Source of the DNA: Actinocorallia populi
GTDB lineage: Bacteria > Actinomycetota > Actinomycetes > Streptosporangiales > Streptosporangiaceae
Length of the DNA: 61,391 nt
Assembly: GCF_002995495.1 (NCBI RefSeq)
Contig: NZ_PVZV01000016.1
Coordinates: forward strand, 1 to 61,391
Direction of reading: 5' to 3'
Shown here: in pieces, positions 16,584 through 25,503 of the stretch
Layout of the letters: each line of letters opens with the position of its first letter
Position numbering within the stretch: the first letter of the stretch is position 1
Program-made: the position numbers and the translations under genes
The notes under the pieces: model-generated
What the model saw: the letters and a program-made list of their open reading frames with translations, nothing else
What the model was told of the DNA's origin: nothing
Database searches by the model: none

Positions 16584-17807
16584 TCAGCGGGACTCGATGG
16601 CGATCATGTGCTTGGGGACGCCGCCGATGCTCACGGCTGCGGCGCGGTCGTCCGCGGTGAGCTGCTTCTGGTCGGCTTCGGGTACGAGGTGGACGTAAGG
16701 GGTGCGCTCCATGCGCTGCAGCGCCTCGTCGACGGCCTGGCGGTCGGCGCCGTTCAGCAGGGTGCGGATCCGCGTCAGGTAGATCCAGTCCAAGGGTTGG
16801 CGGGCCAGCGTCCAGTAGGCGTCGTGGATGCGGCGCTCGATGTCGCCGGCGTCGTCTGGCTGCTGCGCAGTGATGTCGACAACCTGGGCGGCTTCGACGG
16901 CCAGGGCGACGTGCTCGGCCTGCGGCGGGGCCTGGACGGGATCGGCCGGTGCGGCGGTCGCAGCGTCGTGGTCGCGCAGCATCCGCATGACGGTGGCGGG
17001 GGAGGGGTGCTGGCCGCGCTTCTTTCCCTTGGTGATGACAAGCTGGGCGGCGATCTCGCGCAGGCTCTTGCCCTGGCCGCGCAGGTGCAGCGCCATCGAC
17101 AGCATCGCCTCATCGCCGACGGCGGCGCCGCCGATGGTCTTGCCGCGGGCGCGTGCGGACTCGTGCCCTTCCAGGGTGCGCTCGCGGATGTACTCGCGCT
17201 CCATCCCCGACAGGGCCGCCAGGACGGTGAAGACGATGCCGCCCGGGTCGTGGCTGCCCTGCAGCTCTCCGGTGAGGAACTGCAGGGCGACGCCGTAGGA
17301 GCGCAGCTGCTCGGCCAGCTCGGCGAGCTGCAGGCCGCGGCCGAGCCGCTTGTGCTCGTGGACCACGAAGGTGACGTCCAAGCCTGAGGTGCGCAGCTCC
17401 CGCGCCCACTCCACAGCCTTGTCGAGTTCGGGCCGCTGGGCGGCGCGGGTGGAGACCTTCTCGGTGAACACCTTGGTGACGCCGGCGGCCTTGAGCGAGT
17501 CGAGCTGGGGGTTCAGGGATTGGCGGGCGGTGGAGGCGCGGGCGTAGCCGATCCGCACGTGCCCGGCCGACCGGGTGTCGGCGGCCGCGGGGCGGGGCAG
17601 CTCGATCCACAGCGTCCCGGGCTTGCGCACCGGCGGGACCGGAACGTTGAGCGCCTTGGCGAGCGAGGGCACGAGCCGGAACCGCGCGGTGTGGTACTGC
17701 GCGGCCACCTTCCCCTTCCCGGTCCGGCAGGGAGAGCCGGCCGGGGCCGCGCACGAGGACATCGGGCAGTCGTTCGCCTCGACCAGGAGGTGGTTGTCGT
17801 CGCTCAT
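16584..17807 (-). CDS. Serine recombinase with N-terminal Zn-binding domain
   Basis: 407 residues from ATG 17807 (GGGG upstream; a 30-nt longer start exists). The N-terminus has CPMSSCAAPAGSPC (Cys14, 19, 27) with a later His39, as in the small zinc-binding domains on actinobacterial plasmid proteins. The resolvase domain begins about residue 84 with RIGYARAST (catalytic Ser about 92) and continues through RPELDKAVEWAREL and VVHEHKRLGRGLQLAEL to AALSGMEREYIRERTLEG. An HTH region (LREIAAQLVITKG, SPATVMRML) follows at about 230-275, then a long C-terminal extension. It is probably a multimer resolvase or invertase acting at the adjacent site. Confidence 0.88.
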   Translation of the reverse strand: MSDDNHLLVEANDCPMSSCAAPAGSPCRTGKGKVAAQYHTARFRLVPSLAKALNVPVPPVRKPGTLWIELPRPAAADTRSAGHVRIGYARASTARQSLNPQLDSLKAAGVTKVFTEKVSTRAAQRPELDKAVEWARELRTSGLDVTFVVHEHKRLGRGLQLAELAEQLRSYGVALQFLTGELQGSHDPGGIVFTVLAALSGMEREYIRERTLEGHESARARGKTIGGAAVGDEAMLSMALHLRGQGKSLREIAAQLVITKGKKRGQHPSPATVMRMLRDHDAATAAPADPVQAPPQAEHVALAVEAAQVVDITAQQPDDAGDIERRIHDAYWTLARQPLDWIYLTRIRTLLNGADRQAVDEALQRMERTPYVHLVPEADQKQLTADDRAAAVSIGGVPKHMIAIESR

Positions 17808-17817
17808 GCCCCCGATC

Positions 17818-17939
17818 GTTTCATGTGTGTGTTTCAATCGTCAATCTATTTGAAACGACTCATGAAACGGTTTCGGGGTGCGTTCGCCCTGTTCGCGCTT
17901 CACCGTTCGGGGTGTTTCATAGGCGATCGCTTATGAAAC
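17818..17939. promoter_or_regulatory. res: Putative res/operator site upstream of the serine recombinase
   Basis: Multiple GTTTCA/TGAAAC half-sites. Two 26-bp dyads lie at 17831-17856 (GTTTCAA...TTTGAAAC) and 17914-17939 (GTTTCATA...TATGAAAC, with one mismatched pair). An 11-bp GAAACGGTTTC lies between them (17864-17874), and one more half-site is at 17818. The arrangement resembles the multi-subsite res of resolvases and would also allow autorepression. Confidence 0.65.
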
Positions 17940-19425: not shown

Positions 19426-20094
19426 ATGGCAAGCGCAACCACGCAAAAAAGCGCACCTTCGTTTTCCGACTACGGATCGCAGATCCATTCCGGCCAAACT
19501 GCTCAGCAGATGGATCCGGCCAGTCTCTTCCCGCTCCTGGAGAAACTCTTCAGTCTCTTCCAGCAGCAGGGCCCCTCGGGACAGGTCGGAACGATGGGCA
19601 CCACCTCCGGCGGGGGCCAGGTAGACCCGGCCGGTCTCCTCCCGCTCCTGGAGAAACTCTTCAGTCTCTTCCAGCAGCAGGGCCCCTCGGGACAGGTCGG
19701 AACGATGGGCACCACCTCCGGCGGGGGCCAGGTAGACCCGGCCGGTCTCCTCCCGCTCCTGGAGAAACTCTTCAGTCTCTTCCAGCAGCAGGGCCCCTCG
19801 GGACAGGTCGGAACGATGGGCACCACCTCCGGCGGGGGCCAGGTAGACCCGGCCTGGTTCATCCCAGTCCTCACGGGAATCCTCAGTCTCTTCCAGCAGC
19901 AGGGCCCCTCGGGACAGGTCAGGCCCATGGGCACCACCTCGGGCGGGGGACAGGTGGACCCGGCTGCCTGGTTCATCCCAATCATCGCGGGAATTCTCAG
20001 CCTTCTGCAGCAGCAGGGTCCGTCAGGGCAGGTCGCCCCGTCCTCGCTCTTCGGTCCCAACATGTGGGGATGCCCGCCTTGGGCGCGGGCGTGA
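19426..20094 (+). CDS. Repeat protein with five amphipathic 37-residue units
   Basis: 222 residues, with AGGGGAG before ATG 19426. After a polar N-terminus (about 30 residues) come five 37-residue units. Each has an amphipathic/hydrophobic helix (PAGLLPLLEKLFSLFQQQ, or the more apolar PAWFIPVLTGILSLFQQQ in units 4-5) followed by a Gly/Ser linker (GPSGQVGTMGTTSGGGQV). Units 1-3 are nearly identical at DNA level (period 111 bp). No signal peptide. It is the first gene of a five-gene set with a subtilisin-like protease. It may be a membrane-active or scaffold protein, possibly a protease substrate; this is inference. Confidence 0.65.
   Translation: MASATTQKSAPSFSDYGSQIHSGQTAQQMDPASLFPLLEKLFSLFQQQGPSGQVGTMGTTSGGGQVDPAGLLPLLEKLFSLFQQQGPSGQVGTMGTTSGGGQVDPAGLLPLLEKLFSLFQQQGPSGQVGTMGTTSGGGQVDPAWFIPVLTGILSLFQQQGPSGQVRPMGTTSGGGQVDPAAWFIPIIAGILSLLQQQGPSGQVAPSSLFGPNMWGCPPWARA
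19570..19902 (+). repeat. 111-bp tandem repeats within the 19426 gene
   Basis: The marker GGCCCCTCGG recurs at 19570, 19681 and 19792, an exact 111-bp period. A more diverged copy continues the array beyond 19900. The near identity implies recent expansion or gene conversion. Confidence 0.85.
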
Positions 20095-20139
20095 CGGTGG
20101 CGAGGTGTTCGCTGCTGGGATTGTGAGGCGAGGCGGAAG

Positions 20140-20430
20140 ATGACCTCAAAGATGTCCGACCTATATACCATGGCCGGTTCTGTTGGTGACGGTGCGGTGC
20201 CCTTCGGCGATCAGTCAAAGGCGCAGAGTCGCATCGTCCTGGAGGGCGTCAACAACTGGCTACAGAGGACGGTTCCGCAGAGGCCGCAGTTCGCCGGACT
20301 CGTTCCGGTGGCGCTGGGGGCGGTACGGCTATACCGGGCTCAGAAATATCAGGAGTCGCTCTACCTCGCCCAGAGCATCGCGAAGATACTCGAGTATCTC
20401 GGCGAATCGGTCCCCGTTGAAGATGGGTAG
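20140..20430 (+). CDS. Small hypothetical protein (96 aa) of the protease locus
   Basis: A helical protein: the N-terminal 30 residues are polar, then RIVLEGVNNWLQRTVPQRP, a short hydrophobic segment (FAGLVPVALGAVRLY) and a Tyr/Leu-rich helix (YQESLYLAQSIAKILEYL). AGGCGGAAG precedes the ATG. The 3' end overlaps the next gene by 8 nt, which suggests translational coupling. I do not recognise it. Confidence 0.6.
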   Translation: MTSKMSDLYTMAGSVGDGAVPFGDQSKAQSRIVLEGVNNWLQRTVPQRPQFAGLVPVALGAVRLYRAQKYQESLYLAQSIAKILEYLGESVPVEDG

Positions 20431-20689
20431 TTCATCTGGCTCCGGACCGGCCGCAGGCCGGTCCGGAGGCACTCGATATGTCATGCGTGATGCGGACCAC
20501 GGTCCTTCCATCCTGCTGGCTCAGGCAGCCGAATCTCTCGCCGCGGACCCCGAGGTCAGGTTCATACGTGCGATCGGTAACCCCGACGCACCGGTCCTGC
20601 TGGTTCTGGAGACCTCTCCCGCCCACGCCGAGGTGCTGCGGCGGAGATTCGGGAGAGACCTCGAGATCGAAGAGGACCAGATCATATGA
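20423..20689 (+). CDS. Free-standing protease-prodomain-like small protein
   Basis: 88 residues. After a Gly/Ser-rich start, residues 19-86 (RYVMRDAD ... LAADPEVRFIR ... PVLLVLETSPAHAEVLRRRF ... LEIEEDQ) match by pattern the N-terminal region of the downstream protease, residues 42-130 (RYMVKALP ... LESDPNVEVKQR ... DLLVCEMEVDYAKTLRQSL ... VRIETDR). Subtilisin prodomains (I9-like) fold the enzyme and inhibit it, so this looks like a separately encoded prodomain or inhibitor. It overlaps the upstream gene by 8 nt and lies 46 nt before the protease gene. An internal ATG at 20483 is an alternative start. Confidence 0.6.
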   Translation: MGSSSGSGPAAGRSGGTRYVMRDADHGPSILLAQAAESLAADPEVRFIRAIGNPDAPVLLVLETSPAHAEVLRRRFGRDLEIEEDQII

Positions 20690-20735
20690 ATTCCGATCAT
20701 GTGACCAGTTGAATTTCTAGCACAAGGGAAATCCC

Positions 20736-22616
20736 ATGACTGACAGGGATAAGAAAGAAAGCAGCAAGCCGACGGGTCGGCCGCGCGGCCGAGCGAAGCC
20801 CTCCGAGGCGAACGAAGCGAAGCCTTCCGAGGCGGGCGAGCTGGCCTCCCGCCCTCAGCGCTACATGGTCAAGGCCCTGCCGGCGGCGCAGCTCACGCCG
20901 ATGGGGGTGAACGTACCTCCCTTGAGCCCGTCCGCCCTGTTCCAGATGCTCGAGTCCGATCCGAACGTCGAGGTGAAGCAGCGTCTGGCACCGTCTCGCA
21001 TCACCCCTTTCGGTACGGGCGAGATGCCCGGCACGGATCTCCTGGTCTGCGAGATGGAGGTCGACTACGCCAAGACGCTGCGCCAGTCGCTCCCGCAGGT
21101 GCGCATCGAGACCGACCGGCTGCTCTCCTACGCCCAGGCGCCCGTCATCTCGGAGAGTCGATCCGCCGGGCCACTGCAGCCGCTCGGCCTGCACCTCACC
21201 GTCACTTTTCTGGTCCGTGGCACCAGAGGGGAGCCTCTGCCGGCCGCAACGGTCATCGTCGTGGGGCACCAGGGCTTTTCCCAGGGGGTTACGGGAAATG
21301 ACGGACGGACATCGATAACTCTCATCGGGGAGACTCCGCAATCAATTAAGTATGTCCAGTTCCTGCCGGCTGAAGGGTACTGGAGCCTCCAGGTGAACCG
21401 CCCCTCCCTGGCGGTGGGGCAGGACAATATCGTCTCCCTGAAAAGAAGCATTTCGGATACGTTTCCCGGCTTTCCGGAGCAGCGGATGTTCAGCTGGGGC
21501 GCGCAGGCCATGTCGCTGGACCGCATAAGTCCGACCCTGCGCGGCAAAGGCGTCAAGATCGCCATCGTCGACTCGGGGGTGGACGTCCAGCACCCCATTT
21601 TGGGCCGTGTCACCGCAGGTGTCGACCTCGTCGATCACGCACCCCGAGGATGGGCCGTGGACATCGTCCGGCACGGCTCCCACTGCGCCGGCGTGATCAC
21701 CGGCACCGGGGAAGAGGGGATCTACGGCTTCGTCTCGGAGGCGGAGGTCCATGCCTGCAAGATCTTCCCGGGTGGCTACTTCAGTGATCTCGTCGCCGCC
21801 GTCTATTACTGCATCGACCAGCAGATCGATGTGATGAACTTCAGCCTCGGCGCCCAGGGGTTCTCCTCCGACGTCGCGGAAGCGATCGCTGCGGCTCGGC
21901 AGGCGGGGGTGGCCTGTATAGCCGCAACGGGCAACACCGCCGGCGCGGTCAGCTTCCCTGGGAACTTGCCGGATGTGCTGTCGGTGGCGGCCATCGGCAA
22001 GATCGGCACCTACCCCAAGGAGAGCACCCACGCCGGCGAGGTGCTGGGCCAGGCGAATTCCGAGGGCTACTTCGCCGCGAAGTTCTCCTGCCACGGGCCG
22101 GAGGTCGATGTCTGCGCACCGGGTGTGGCGGTCCTGTCGTCGGTGCCCGACGGCGGCTACGCCGTCTGGGACGGGACTTCCATGGCAGCCCCCCATGTCA
22201 CGGGGCTAGCCGCACTCGTGCTCTCGGCTCGCGATGAGTTCCGCAGCGCATACGCCCGCCGCGATGCCCGCCGTGTCGACCGGCTGTTCCAGGTCCTGAA
22301 GGAAAGCTGCACCCCGATCGATCTCGGCGACCCGCACCGGACCGGTGCGGGGATGCCCGACGCCCTGCGCGCCCTAGAGCCCGTATCCCCGTCGTTCGCA
22401 TCGCCGAACGACAATATCCGCCAACTGCTGGAACAACTCCTCAAGGCCCTGTCCTCGGGGGGTTCGGGAGGTGTCGCCCCAGCGTCGACTGCGTCTTCAC
22501 TTTCCGCCCCTGCCCCCCTCGAAGAGGAGACCGACGTGCGGCGCACACTGAGGCAGCTGAACGAGGAGGTGTACGCCGCAGGCCTCAATGGCTACGGTCC
22601 GGACCCGCTCCTCTGA
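20736..22616 (+). CDS. Subtilisin-like (S8) serine protease without signal peptide
   Basis: 626 residues. The catalytic triad is visible: Asp279 (IAIVDSGVD), His313 (VRHGSHCAG) and Ser482 (DGTSMAAPH), with oxyanion Asn400 (ATGN). Order: polar N-terminus 1-40, prodomain-like region 42-135, an Ig-like/carboxypeptidase-regulatory domain about 150-237 (TVTFLVRGTRGEPLPAATV ... GNDGRTSI), the protease core 265-510, then a low-complexity tail. The N-terminus is highly charged (MTDRDKKESSK) with no secretion signal, so it may act in the cytoplasm or leave by another route. ATG start with AGGGAAAT upstream. A small gene upstream encodes a prodomain-like partner. Confidence 0.9.
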   Translation: MTDRDKKESSKPTGRPRGRAKPSEANEAKPSEAGELASRPQRYMVKALPAAQLTPMGVNVPPLSPSALFQMLESDPNVEVKQRLAPSRITPFGTGEMPGTDLLVCEMEVDYAKTLRQSLPQVRIETDRLLSYAQAPVISESRSAGPLQPLGLHLTVTFLVRGTRGEPLPAATVIVVGHQGFSQGVTGNDGRTSITLIGETPQSIKYVQFLPAEGYWSLQVNRPSLAVGQDNIVSLKRSISDTFPGFPEQRMFSWGAQAMSLDRISPTLRGKGVKIAIVDSGVDVQHPILGRVTAGVDLVDHAPRGWAVDIVRHGSHCAGVITGTGEEGIYGFVSEAEVHACKIFPGGYFSDLVAAVYYCIDQQIDVMNFSLGAQGFSSDVAEAIAAARQAGVACIAATGNTAGAVSFPGNLPDVLSVAAIGKIGTYPKESTHAGEVLGQANSEGYFAAKFSCHGPEVDVCAPGVAVLSSVPDGGYAVWDGTSMAAPHVTGLAALVLSARDEFRSAYARRDARRVDRLFQVLKESCTPIDLGDPHRTGAGMPDALRALEPVSPSFASPNDNIRQLLEQLLKALSSGGSGGVAPASTASSLSAPAPLEEETDVRRTLRQLNEEVYAAGLNGYGPDPLL

Positions 22617-22758
22617 CGGCCAGGCAGGACGCTCCCGCCCGGGGAAACCCGGGCCCTGCCCCCGCACTCGCCGGTTCACTCACCCGGAGACTCGCAGTCC
22701 GGCCGTCCGGCTCATCGAATTCATCAAGCCTCCGTTTGCATTGATAGATGGAGATTCC

Positions 22759-23847
22759 ATGAGTGACGGGCATGCCTATTTCTTCAAGAAGAACCGCTAC
22801 CTCCGCTACAACATCGCCAACGACGCTGTAGACGTAGGGCCCACCGAAATCGCCAACTTCTGGCCCGCCCTCCCCGCAGAATTCCAAGCCAACCTAGACG
22901 CCACGATCAACTGGGGCGACGGGCATGCCTATTTCTTCAAGAAGAACCGCTACCTCCGCTACAACATCGCCAACGACGCTGTAGACGTAGGGCCCACCGA
23001 AATCGCCAACTTCTGGCCCGCCCTCCCCGCAGAATTCCAAGCCAACCTAGACGCCACGATCAACTGGGGCGACGGGCATGCCTATTTCTTCAAGAAGAAC
23101 CGCTACCTCCGCTACAACATCGCCAACGACGCTGTAGACGTAGGGCCCACCGAAATCGCCAACTTCTGGCCCGCCCTCCCCGCAGAATTCCAAGCCAACC
23201 TAGACGCCACGATCAACTGGAGCTGGGTCGACCGCTGGCAACTACTCGACATCGACCGGCGCTTCCTCTACGTCATGGAACGACTCGTCGAACGCTACGG
23301 ATACACCGTGAACGGAGCAGCCGGGCTCGCCGGGAACCTCGGGGCCGAGTCCGGTGTGGTCCCTTCCCGTGTCGAAGGGAGCCATGCCGATACTCCGATG
23401 CGCTCCAAGAACTTCCAGGGCGTGATGACCGACCATGAACCAGATGACATCATGAACCGCAACGCCGCCGCGCACATCGGTCCCGCGCTGCCCGGCATCG
23501 GCCTCGCCCAATGGACCTCTGGCAGCCGACGCGCCAAACTCTTCACCCATCCATTCGGCGGAAGCGGTCTCGGCGCCCGCGTGATCTTCAATATGGACGC
23601 CCAGCTCGACTACCTCGCCCATGAACTGACATCCGGTTTCTCCGGCGTCCGAGCCGTCCTCATCAACCCCGCGGTGACGGTGAACGCCGCCTGCGACGAG
23701 GTCGTTTACAACTTCGAGGTCCCCGGGGCAATCCTGGAGAACGGGACCAAGCTCCCACGATCTGATCCCCGCGTCCAAAATGTCTTCGCCCAGCGCCGCA
23801 CATGGGCGCAGCATGCTCTGAACGCCTACCATGCCGCTCATCCCTGA
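22759..23847 (+). CDS. Hemopexin-repeat and phage-tail-lysozyme-like protein
   Basis: 362 residues. Three identical 51-residue hemopexin-type units (GHAYFFKKNRYLRYNIAND ... FWPALPAEFQANLDATINW) occupy residues 3-155. A domain from about 175 (FLYVMERLVERYGYTVNGAAGLAGNLGAES ... GIGLAQWTSGSRRAKL) matches the pattern of phage-tail lysozyme/peptidoglycan hydrolase domains, with the Glu in GAES as a likely catalytic residue. GGAG before ATG 22759 decides the start. Lies 142 nt after the protease gene, probably the same locus. No signal peptide. It may be a wall-cleaving effector whose hemopexin units bind a partner. Confidence 0.8.
   Translation: MSDGHAYFFKKNRYLRYNIANDAVDVGPTEIANFWPALPAEFQANLDATINWGDGHAYFFKKNRYLRYNIANDAVDVGPTEIANFWPALPAEFQANLDATINWGDGHAYFFKKNRYLRYNIANDAVDVGPTEIANFWPALPAEFQANLDATINWSWVDRWQLLDIDRRFLYVMERLVERYGYTVNGAAGLAGNLGAESGVVPSRVEGSHADTPMRSKNFQGVMTDHEPDDIMNRNAAAHIGPALPGIGLAQWTSGSRRAKLFTHPFGGSGLGARVIFNMDAQLDYLAHELTSGFSGVRAVLINPAVTVNAACDEVVYNFEVPGAILENGTKLPRSDPRVQNVFAQRRTWAQHALNAYHAAHP
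22764..23222 (+). repeat. Three perfect 153-bp tandem repeats (hemopexin units)
   Basis: GACGGGCATGCC starts recur at 22764 (approximately), 22917 and 23070, and the three units read as identical throughout. Such perfect DNA identity indicates very recent amplification or active homogenisation. Confidence 0.9.
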
Positions 23848-24207: not shown

Positions 24208-25503
24208 GTGAGCGACTTCCCTGCCACGCCGCCGCCCGCTGACGTTCCCGAGCCCGCCCAGCGGCCGGAACGACCATGGAAGCGGCGGGTGCTGATCGGG
24301 CTCGGCATCGCGGCCGCGCTCGCGTTCCTGTTCTTCCTGTTGTGGCCGGCCACAGCCTGGTGGGTTGAGCGCGTCGACGGCGTCGACCTGGACGCCAAGG
24401 ACTTGGAGACCGGCAAGGACCGCCAGGCCCTCTTGGACAAGGCCCGCGGCCGATTCACCGCACTGGCCACCGGCATCCTCGCGGCCATCGCGATCATCTA
24501 CACCGCCTCGAACGCCAGGTCCGCCCGTGATACGGCCAAGGCTGCAATCAGTAGCTCTGAGGCGTCCCACCGTGCCGCTGAGGCATCCGAACGCACCACC
24601 CAGGCCGCCTTCGACAGCGCCAAGGCTTCCCAAAAGACCGCCCGAGCCGCCATCCGCACCGCAGCCGCCACCGAGCGGGGCCTGGTCACCAGCCGGTTCA
24701 CCGCCGCCGTCGAACAGCTCGGCAACACCAACCCCGCCATCCAGCTCGGCGGCGTCCACGCCCTAGTCGGCATCGCCGACGACGAACCCACCATGCGCCA
24801 GACCTGCATCGACGTCCTGTGCGCCTACCTGCGCCTGCCGTATGACCCCGACCCCGGCAAAGACGGAGACCTTCAGGACCGCAAGGCCTTCCAGTTCCAG
24901 CGGGAGGTCCGCCACACCATCCTGCGCCTCATCGGCAACCACCTACGCCTCCCCGATGACCACCCCCACTGCTGGTGCGGCCACGACTTCGACTTCACCG
25001 ACGTCATCTTCGACGGCGCCGACCTCCACGAAGCCCGCTTCACCACCGGCCGCATCTCCTTCCGCGACGCCCACTTCTCCAGCGGCATGATCGACTTCGG
25101 AGGCGCGGAGTTCACCGGCGGCGAGGTCAGCTTCTGGGACGCAGAGTTCACCGGCGGCGAGGTCAACTTCGTGGACGCAGAATTCACCGGCGGCAGGGTC
25201 GACTTCTGGCGCGCCCACTTCTCCGGCGGCACGGTCGACTTCGGAGGCGCGGAGTTCACCGGCGGCGAGGTCAGCTTCTGGGGCGCAAAGTTCTCCAGCG
25301 GCGAAGTCAGCTTCGTAGTCGCGGAGTTCACCGGCGGCACGGTCGACTTCGTGGACGCAGAGTTCACCGGCGGCACGGTCGACTTCCGAGAAGCGGTCGG
25401 TGAACGGCTGAACGAGCTGCCTGGCCCAGGGGAAGAAATCCCTGCCGGGCTGCTGCTGCCGGAGGCATGGTTGTCGGCAGGGGAAGAAGGCCAGCCCACA
25501 TGA
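24208..25503 (+). CDS. Membrane-anchored pentapeptide/decapeptide-repeat protein (paralogue 1)
   Basis: 431 residues; GTG start with AAGGA upstream. Two hydrophobic segments (about 29-50 and 85-103, FTALATGILAAIAIIYTA) flank a short charged loop. A coiled-coil-like Ala/Ser/Thr-rich stretch (about 105-150) follows, then a conserved module ATERGLVTSRFTAAVEQLG ... IQLGGVHALVGIADDEPTMR. The C-terminal half has degenerate repeats of the type FTGGxVxFxxAE, which would form a right-handed beta-helix. Three paralogues occur in the window. It is probably bound to the membrane with the helix in the cytoplasm. Function unknown. Confidence 0.75.
   Translation: MSDFPATPPPADVPEPAQRPERPWKRRVLIGLGIAAALAFLFFLLWPATAWWVERVDGVDLDAKDLETGKDRQALLDKARGRFTALATGILAAIAIIYTASNARSARDTAKAAISSSEASHRAAEASERTTQAAFDSAKASQKTARAAIRTAAATERGLVTSRFTAAVEQLGNTNPAIQLGGVHALVGIADDEPTMRQTCIDVLCAYLRLPYDPDPGKDGDLQDRKAFQFQREVRHTILRLIGNHLRLPDDHPHCWCGHDFDFTDVIFDGADLHEARFTTGRISFRDAHFSSGMIDFGGAEFTGGEVSFWDAEFTGGEVNFVDAEFTGGRVDFWRAHFSGGTVDFGGAEFTGGEVSFWGAKFSSGEVSFVVAEFTGGTVDFVDAEFTGGTVDFREAVGERLNELPGPGEEIPAGLLLPEAWLSAGEEGQPT

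Follow-up and report, generated by a model that had tools for sequence, protein, structure and literature searches.

A putative actinobacterial operon combining a subtilisin, a stand-alone propeptide-like protein and a low-complexity protein: a possible regulated protease module

Four consecutive genes of an Actinocorallia populi contig, here named A to D, seem to make up a single actinobacterial operon, to which a fifth gene, the hemopexin-lysozyme E, appears to have been added locally ("4 + 1"). D is a subtilisin and C a free-standing homologue of its N-terminal domain. We tentatively read A-B-C-D as a regulated intracellular protease module, in which D would be a zymogen under the control of both a cis and a trans prodomain and an assembly of A and B would act as the recruiter.

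Gene inventory and surroundings

The window, i.e., the whole stretch of 61,391 nucleotides that was analysed, contains five open reading frames on the plus strand between 19426 and 23847, as an earlier, sequence-only reading had listed them. The overlap of the two small genes reported there is also found: B and C share 8 bp if C starts with the ATG at 20423. The features are as follows.

19426..20094, plus strand: gene A, low-complexity repeat protein of 222 aa; the ATG at 19426 is preceded by GGGGAG
19516..19964, plus strand: 111-bp tandem repeat array of gene A, 4.0 copies, 93% matches
20140..20430, plus strand: gene B, 96 aa, probably helical (judged by eye); the family adjoins D
20423..20689, plus strand: gene C, 88 aa, free-standing propeptide-like domain
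20736..22616, plus strand: gene D, subtilisin of 626 aa; no signal peptide seen by eye
20856..21113, plus strand: residues 41-126 of D, propeptide-like N-domain, homologue of C
21192..21437, plus strand: residues 153-234 of D, predicted strands, perhaps Ig-like or carboxypeptidase-regulatory-like; Pfam matches below cut-off
21543..22247, plus strand: residues 270-504 of D, PF00082 catalytic domain with D279, H313, N400 and S482
22759..23847, plus strand: gene E, hemopexin repeats and phage-tail-lysozyme domain; outside the conserved operon
22765..23220, plus strand: hemopexin-coding repeats of E, three 153-bp copies, 100% identical

In-frame tandem duplications are thus seen in two neighbouring genes of different kinds (A, 19516-19964; E, 22765-23220). 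Just 5' of A, 18666-19121 matches a transposase domain of the IS110/IS116 type and seems to be what is left of such a gene; 16584-17837 on the minus strand is a resolvase gene, and a pentapeptide-repeat protein with a hydrophobic N-terminal stretch is encoded 3' of E (24208-25503). The contig of the window also carries matches to ParA/ParB and to a TrwC relaxase; a simple test detected no overlap of its ends. Judged from such matches, a plasmid is plausible.

Distribution and conservation of the operon

The operon ranges over the Streptosporangiaceae and their relatives, one other actinomycete family and some Streptomyces. With residues 36-268 of D as the query, the D N-domain was found in 43 of 341 family genomes. 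The genera that bear D include Planobispora, Nonomuraea, Microbispora, Planotetraspora, Acrocarpospora, Sphaerimonospora, Thermomonospora and Actinomadura, and there are Streptomyces records too. Gene order, where the flanks were read, is alike in most D loci. A profile of B matches at least 42 of 345 family genomes, and each B lies on the D contig, about 1 kb or less from D; since the profile was built from D-adjacent B genes and the best 12-14 candidates per genome were scored, a B away from D could be missed. In the family search a single D genome (G195) gave no B match, and D is truncated there; the two other genomes of the genus to which the window belongs lack both D and B. In a sample of 394 genomes from the class, some of them family members counted above, the D N-domain is found in 14, B in at least 14 and both in 13, three of the latter being outside the family. 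The class-sample B without D is a marginal partial match (E 7e-4), and the D without B (G512) has lost catalytic residues.

The loci were compared in a table of 55 D loci, 52 of them actinobacterial (L089 is truncated) and three distant proteobacterial, with some rows being near copies. The order A-B-C-D recurs at two distant loci, one in Streptomyces sulfonofaciens (L120), the other in a different family (L161). With the starts as picked by the gene finder, 24 of 27 loci have A and B 10-20 nt apart, and B and C overlap in seven of nine; in Planobispora (L090) the overlap is likewise 8 bp. Over A, B, C and D together, 23 of 24 genome pairs show a dN/dS below 1, which supports the coding status of all four genes. 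The sequence-only reading was to be given up if the partners were confined to this plasmid. They are not: A, B, C and D co-occur elsewhere, chromosomes included, and its terms "system" and "free-standing prodomain-like protein" therefore hold.

The surroundings of these loci also bear on a rather unlikely alternative, i.e., a housekeeping or stress module in which A would be a storage or condensate-like body maintained by D, B and C, with no role in conflict. Three genes recur downstream, which we take to encode universal stress, Hsp20 and DUF1876-type proteins. At least one of them is present in 13 of 15 Microbispora (g29) loci, the other two loci ending at contig edges, and two of the three are present in all five Planotetraspora (g46) loci. 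Such recurrent neighbours suggest vertical inheritance, and one scan of viral contigs did not find the D N-domain, which also speaks for this alternative. The occurrence in Nonomuraea g39, however, is patchy (nine matches, at least one g39 genome without), the copy of the window sits on a plasmid-like contig and adjoins the transposase remnant, and the operon is present on two Streptomyces records of a plasmid collection.

The hemopexin-lysozyme gene

E matches PF00045 at 2.2e-28 in three stretches and PF18013 at 3.7e-14, and a start at ATG 22759 (362 aa) looks likelier than one at 22588 (419 aa). E is likely a cell-wall hydrolase. It is the sole gene of its own genome that matches PF00045 at E 0.01. 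Of 200 family genomes searched with E, 23 have a match, its own genome included; among the matches listed in other genomes none is near D, as judged by coordinates and, for three of them, by reading the surroundings. Phage records yielded no match at E 1e-5.

E adjoins D only in the window among the loci read, which rules it out as a member of the conserved core, and its type of lysozyme part is seen in no other fetched D locus. Of the five-gene system proposed earlier, the A-D core thus stands and E does not. E appears to be a local add-on and at most a putative partner of D. In Nonomuraea glycinis (L102) the gene of a different hemopexin protein, which resembles a phage endolysin in its C-terminal part, lies upstream of A at a distance of 103 bp. 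With the window, a hemopexin neighbour is seen in two of 52 actinobacterial loci, which is suggestive, not proof. Hemopexin proteins were also seen at two further places. One is encoded on the opposite strand of a Streptomyces jietaisiensis plasmid (L015) and is amidase-like in part, at a score below the Pfam cut-off; the other, at L186 (7390-9732), has a neighbour whose C-terminal portion shares 56% identity with the E lysozyme part.

The subtilisin and its stand-alone propeptide-like homologue

D is an S8 protease: it matches PF00082 at 5.9e-38 (131.3 bits, the gathering threshold being 21.8), and the catalytic triad D279/H313/S482 is in place as previously described, together with N400. A signal peptide had been denied to D, and this is borne out by eye: the N-terminus is charged and no hydrophobic signal segment is seen. 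In eight pairs of intact copies dN/dS is 0.21-0.41, i.e., selection is purifying in all eight. The D model is of moderate confidence (mean pLDDT 65.8). It aligns to unprocessed pro-subtilisin E (3whi_B) over 524 columns with a TM of 0.75 by target length; 18 mature subtilisins outrank 3whi_B as matches of the model, and 3whi_A gives a TM of 0.60 with an rmsd of 14.3. The match of D to the "subtilase" defence model of PADLOC (3.9e-25) covers the catalytic domain and says little about function.

The free-standing prodomain-like protein was rightly recognised as such. C is a homologue of the D N-domain: the two profiles align with a hhalign probability of 98% (E 6e-14), and the AlphaFold2 model of C (mean pLDDT 80.7) has the order beta-alpha-beta-beta-alpha-beta, which is identical in the model of D 41-126. 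A single-pair BLASTP of C against the D N-domain found nothing. By sequence C does not belong to Pfam I9, which is matched by none of 11 C members at E<=1; by its predicted fold and its kinship with a domain preceding a protease it resembles the I9 type. Among the best 50 Foldseek matches of C, the top probabilities go to POIA1, alone (1itp, 0.99) or bound to subtilisin (1v5i_B, 0.98), with E-values that are not significant (0.06 and worse), HPPK enzymes in the first two ranks by E and many other ferredoxin-like folds matching too. In one locus (L053) C and D are fused in a single ORF. The dN/dS of C is 0.23-0.37 (five pairs).

Of the 46 loci in which D keeps Asp, His and Ser, 16 have C (16 of 43 if the three proteobacterial loci are left out); of the eight in which D has lost one or more catalytic residues, none does. 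Being missing from 30 of the 46 intact-triad loci, C is not essential. None of the Microbispora loci yielded a C. Few lineages underlie the association of C with an active D, and the tree carries a warning that some long branches may be wrongly joined; we read the tree as having C ancestral and later lost. The DNA of C had no match in the plasmid collection, and a search of 296 genomes of the phylum returned its own genome and three partial matches (E near 6e-4, taken as chance).

Small ORFs also adjoin S8 genes elsewhere. Paracoccus plasmid S8 proteases, distant relatives of D, have adjacent ORFs of 81-83 aa (L012, 7295-7546; L014, 7057-7302), and the Streptomyces jietaisiensis plasmid mentioned above (L015, 1-7080) carries another S8 protease, an 82-aa neighbour and a gene annotated as serine protease. 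Neither the Paracoccus ORFs nor the 82-aa ORF was accepted as a C homologue, the hhalign probability being about 1% in both cases.

The low-complexity protein A and the small protein B

Searched against Pfam, NCBIfam, PADLOC and PHROGs, A and B match no family significantly; the best match of A is a PHROG of unknown function (E 0.0025, 26 residues). In the window, A is built from hydrophobic units such as VDPAGLLPLLEKLFSLFQQQ, spaced by linkers of Gly, Gln, Ser and Thr. The unit type is DPAxLLPLLEKLFSLFQQQ in the window, VPADLISSLIDVGIEYGPDLIEDFLDLFQ-like in Planobispora and some Nonomuraea, and FWxKVARxxVRYGxPxARQIL-like in many other D loci. By eye and by hydrophobic moment, A would form short helices.

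Common descent of the units of the window clade and the FWxKVAR clade could not be established (hhalign probability 7.8%), and "A" therefore refers to any gene that lies no more than 2.6 kb upstream of D and whose product has 20% or more Q+G and no more than 13% charged residues. Such a gene is present in 47 of 55 loci, and none of 392 genes (100-450 aa) outside that zone has this composition. The rule missed eight loci: L091 and L162 at contig edges, L089, L012-L014, and L092 and L093, which have more charge than allowed and in which A is present by eye. At the other extreme, the A of Thermomonospora has zero charged residues in 165. The dN/dS of A is 0.13-0.43 (five pairs, all Microbispora, the A of the window being outside the sample). 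Searching the plasmid collection with A gave four records, all at E 3 or worse. For B, dN/dS is 0.39-0.79 in five of six pairs; it is 1.2 in the sixth, where very few changes are found. A likeness of B to TPR or MIT-type helices is seen at chance-level E only.

Subtilisins that have lost catalytic residues

Asp, His and Ser of D are kept in 46 of the 55 loci, one D is truncated, and eight have lost at least one of the catalytic residues. "Intact" here refers to Asp, His and Ser only: the oxyanion Asn is replaced in six of the intact rows (L057, L110, L112, L116, L119 and L123). Asn and Ser are lost in L010, L011 and L159, His and Asn in L097; L086 and L088 retain Asp alone, and L121 and L122 none of the four residues. 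The A-like gene is kept in all eight of these loci, B in three. The D tree counts at least two losses of catalytic residues, with a long-branch warning and with 30 rows that belong to neither group left out of the change counts. Under the same warning, the residue-lacking D of L010, L011, L121, L122, L159, L086 and L088 are grouped in one part of the tree. Since A is kept beside a residue-lacking D in eight out of eight loci, we take A and D to be partners beyond substrate and protease; their pairing seems to outlive proteolysis.

This finding weighs on the model that came with the sequence-only reading, in which D acts on A to yield helical peptides active on membranes and also releases or activates the lysozyme E, in the service of defence or cell-cell attack. 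The model is appealing in that A has tandem hydrophobic units on flexible linkers, D matches a defence model of PADLOC, the Nonomuraea glycinis locus has its hemopexin/phage-endolysin-like protein upstream of A, and the A of some relatives carries glycine zippers: 92 GxxxGxxxG motifs were counted in 31 A proteins versus a shuffle mean of 16.3 and a maximum of 28. However, 67 of these 92 come from four proteins; the excess (p < 0.05) is seen in 10 of the 31 and not in the other 21, and the A of the window has no zipper at all. Nor was an exporter or a signal peptide recognised among A-E (Pfam, NCBIfam; by eye). The persistence of A and D in eight loci with catalytic residues lost is not predicted by a pure precursor-and-protease pair, and E is outside the conserved core; neither the cleavage of A into membrane-active units nor the release or activation of the lysozyme finds support here. 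We consider the model as a whole unlikely, a role in defence or attack being possible. That D is mainly a binding scaffold, with proteolysis being secondary or restricted to self-processing, would agree with the repeated losses beside a retained A-like gene, but is improbable in view of the 46 loci that keep Asp, His and Ser and of the purifying selection on intact D.

A possible mechanism

How, then, could the regulated intracellular protease module work? D would be made as a zymogen, the N-terminal propeptide-like domain of which is expected to fold and to cover the catalytic domain. C, the separate homologue of this domain, may act in trans as a second inhibitor or as a folding helper. A, being low in charge, rich in Q and G and presumably equipped with short helices, would self-assemble and be the constant binding partner of D; where D is active, A is probably also a substrate. 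B would be made in step with A and may bridge or tune the assembly. A cellular signal would drive the assembly of A and B and thereby concentrate D; the prodomains would be displaced or degraded, and local proteolysis would be switched on. The computed part of this picture comprises the conservation of the operon, the kinship of C with the D N-domain, the fold predicted for both, the intact triad of this copy and the repeated residue losses beside a retained A and without C. Inhibition by C, the helices and the assembly of A, its contact with D, what B does, and the nature of signal and output are all parts that we infer. Somewhat doubtful is the most specific version, namely that an intracellular subtilisin, restrained by prodomains in cis and trans, is recruited and activated by a self-assembling, near-uncharged, Q/G-rich protein, and that some lineages have kept D as a dead binding subunit.

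If A indeed assembles, bacteria would offer an example of protease control by a low-complexity protein, and one that can be tested in soil actinomycetes. The conserved operon offers two proteins (A and B) without a significant family match and a separately encoded propeptide-like homologue, and the natural D versions with lost catalytic residues may help to separate binding from cutting.

Comparison with known systems

Several known systems share a part with the operon. The best NCBIfam match of D is the type VII secretion mycosin TIGR03921 (117.7 bits); D stays below the equivalog cut-off of 278.75, has no signal peptide that could be seen and has A, B and C as recurrent neighbours, and no genes of type VII secretion were recognised among A-E by Pfam or NCBIfam. 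PatA-type maturation of RiPPs does not apply, D scoring 42.2 bits versus 421.05, and no RiPP modifying enzyme was matched among A-E (Pfam, NCBIfam). Nor is the operon an IetAS system: D reaches E 0.006 against IetS, and Pfam gave no ATPase match among A-E. Gasdermin was matched neither by A, B and E nor by a 70-aa part of C (Pfam, PADLOC sequence models). Actinomycete proteins made of hemopexin repeats and a cell-wall hydrolase (L015, L186) resemble E in this architecture; that of L015 is amidase-like, and neither protein adjoins A-B-C-D in the stretches read.

The predicted fold of C is similar to that of POIA1 (1itp; 1v5i with subtilisin BPN'), with a Foldseek E that is not significant. POIA1 is a fungal protein that is not known to be made beside its target.

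The EAD/NucA-trypsin conflict systems, which combine NucA, trypsin and EAD domains, are likewise protease systems of multicellular bacteria, and S8 is mentioned once in the accessible text (PMC7159879); A, B and C differ in that neither Pfam nor NCBIfam assigns them any of these domains.

Among the described systems that we met, SUB1/SUB1-ProM of Plasmodium (PMC6993865) comes closest in pairing a subtilase with a propeptide-like inhibitor that stands alone. There, too, a free-standing propeptide-like protein is encoded beside subtilisin genes. Its inhibition of SUB1 was measured, whereas that by C is predicted here; the Plasmodium system is eukaryotic and vacuolar, and its abstract names no low-complexity partner. 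Among the open-access papers listed, none describes the combination A-B-C-D, and one in a subscription journal could have escaped; on this basis we take the combination to be new. Its parts, a subtilase and a propeptide fold, are of known kinds.
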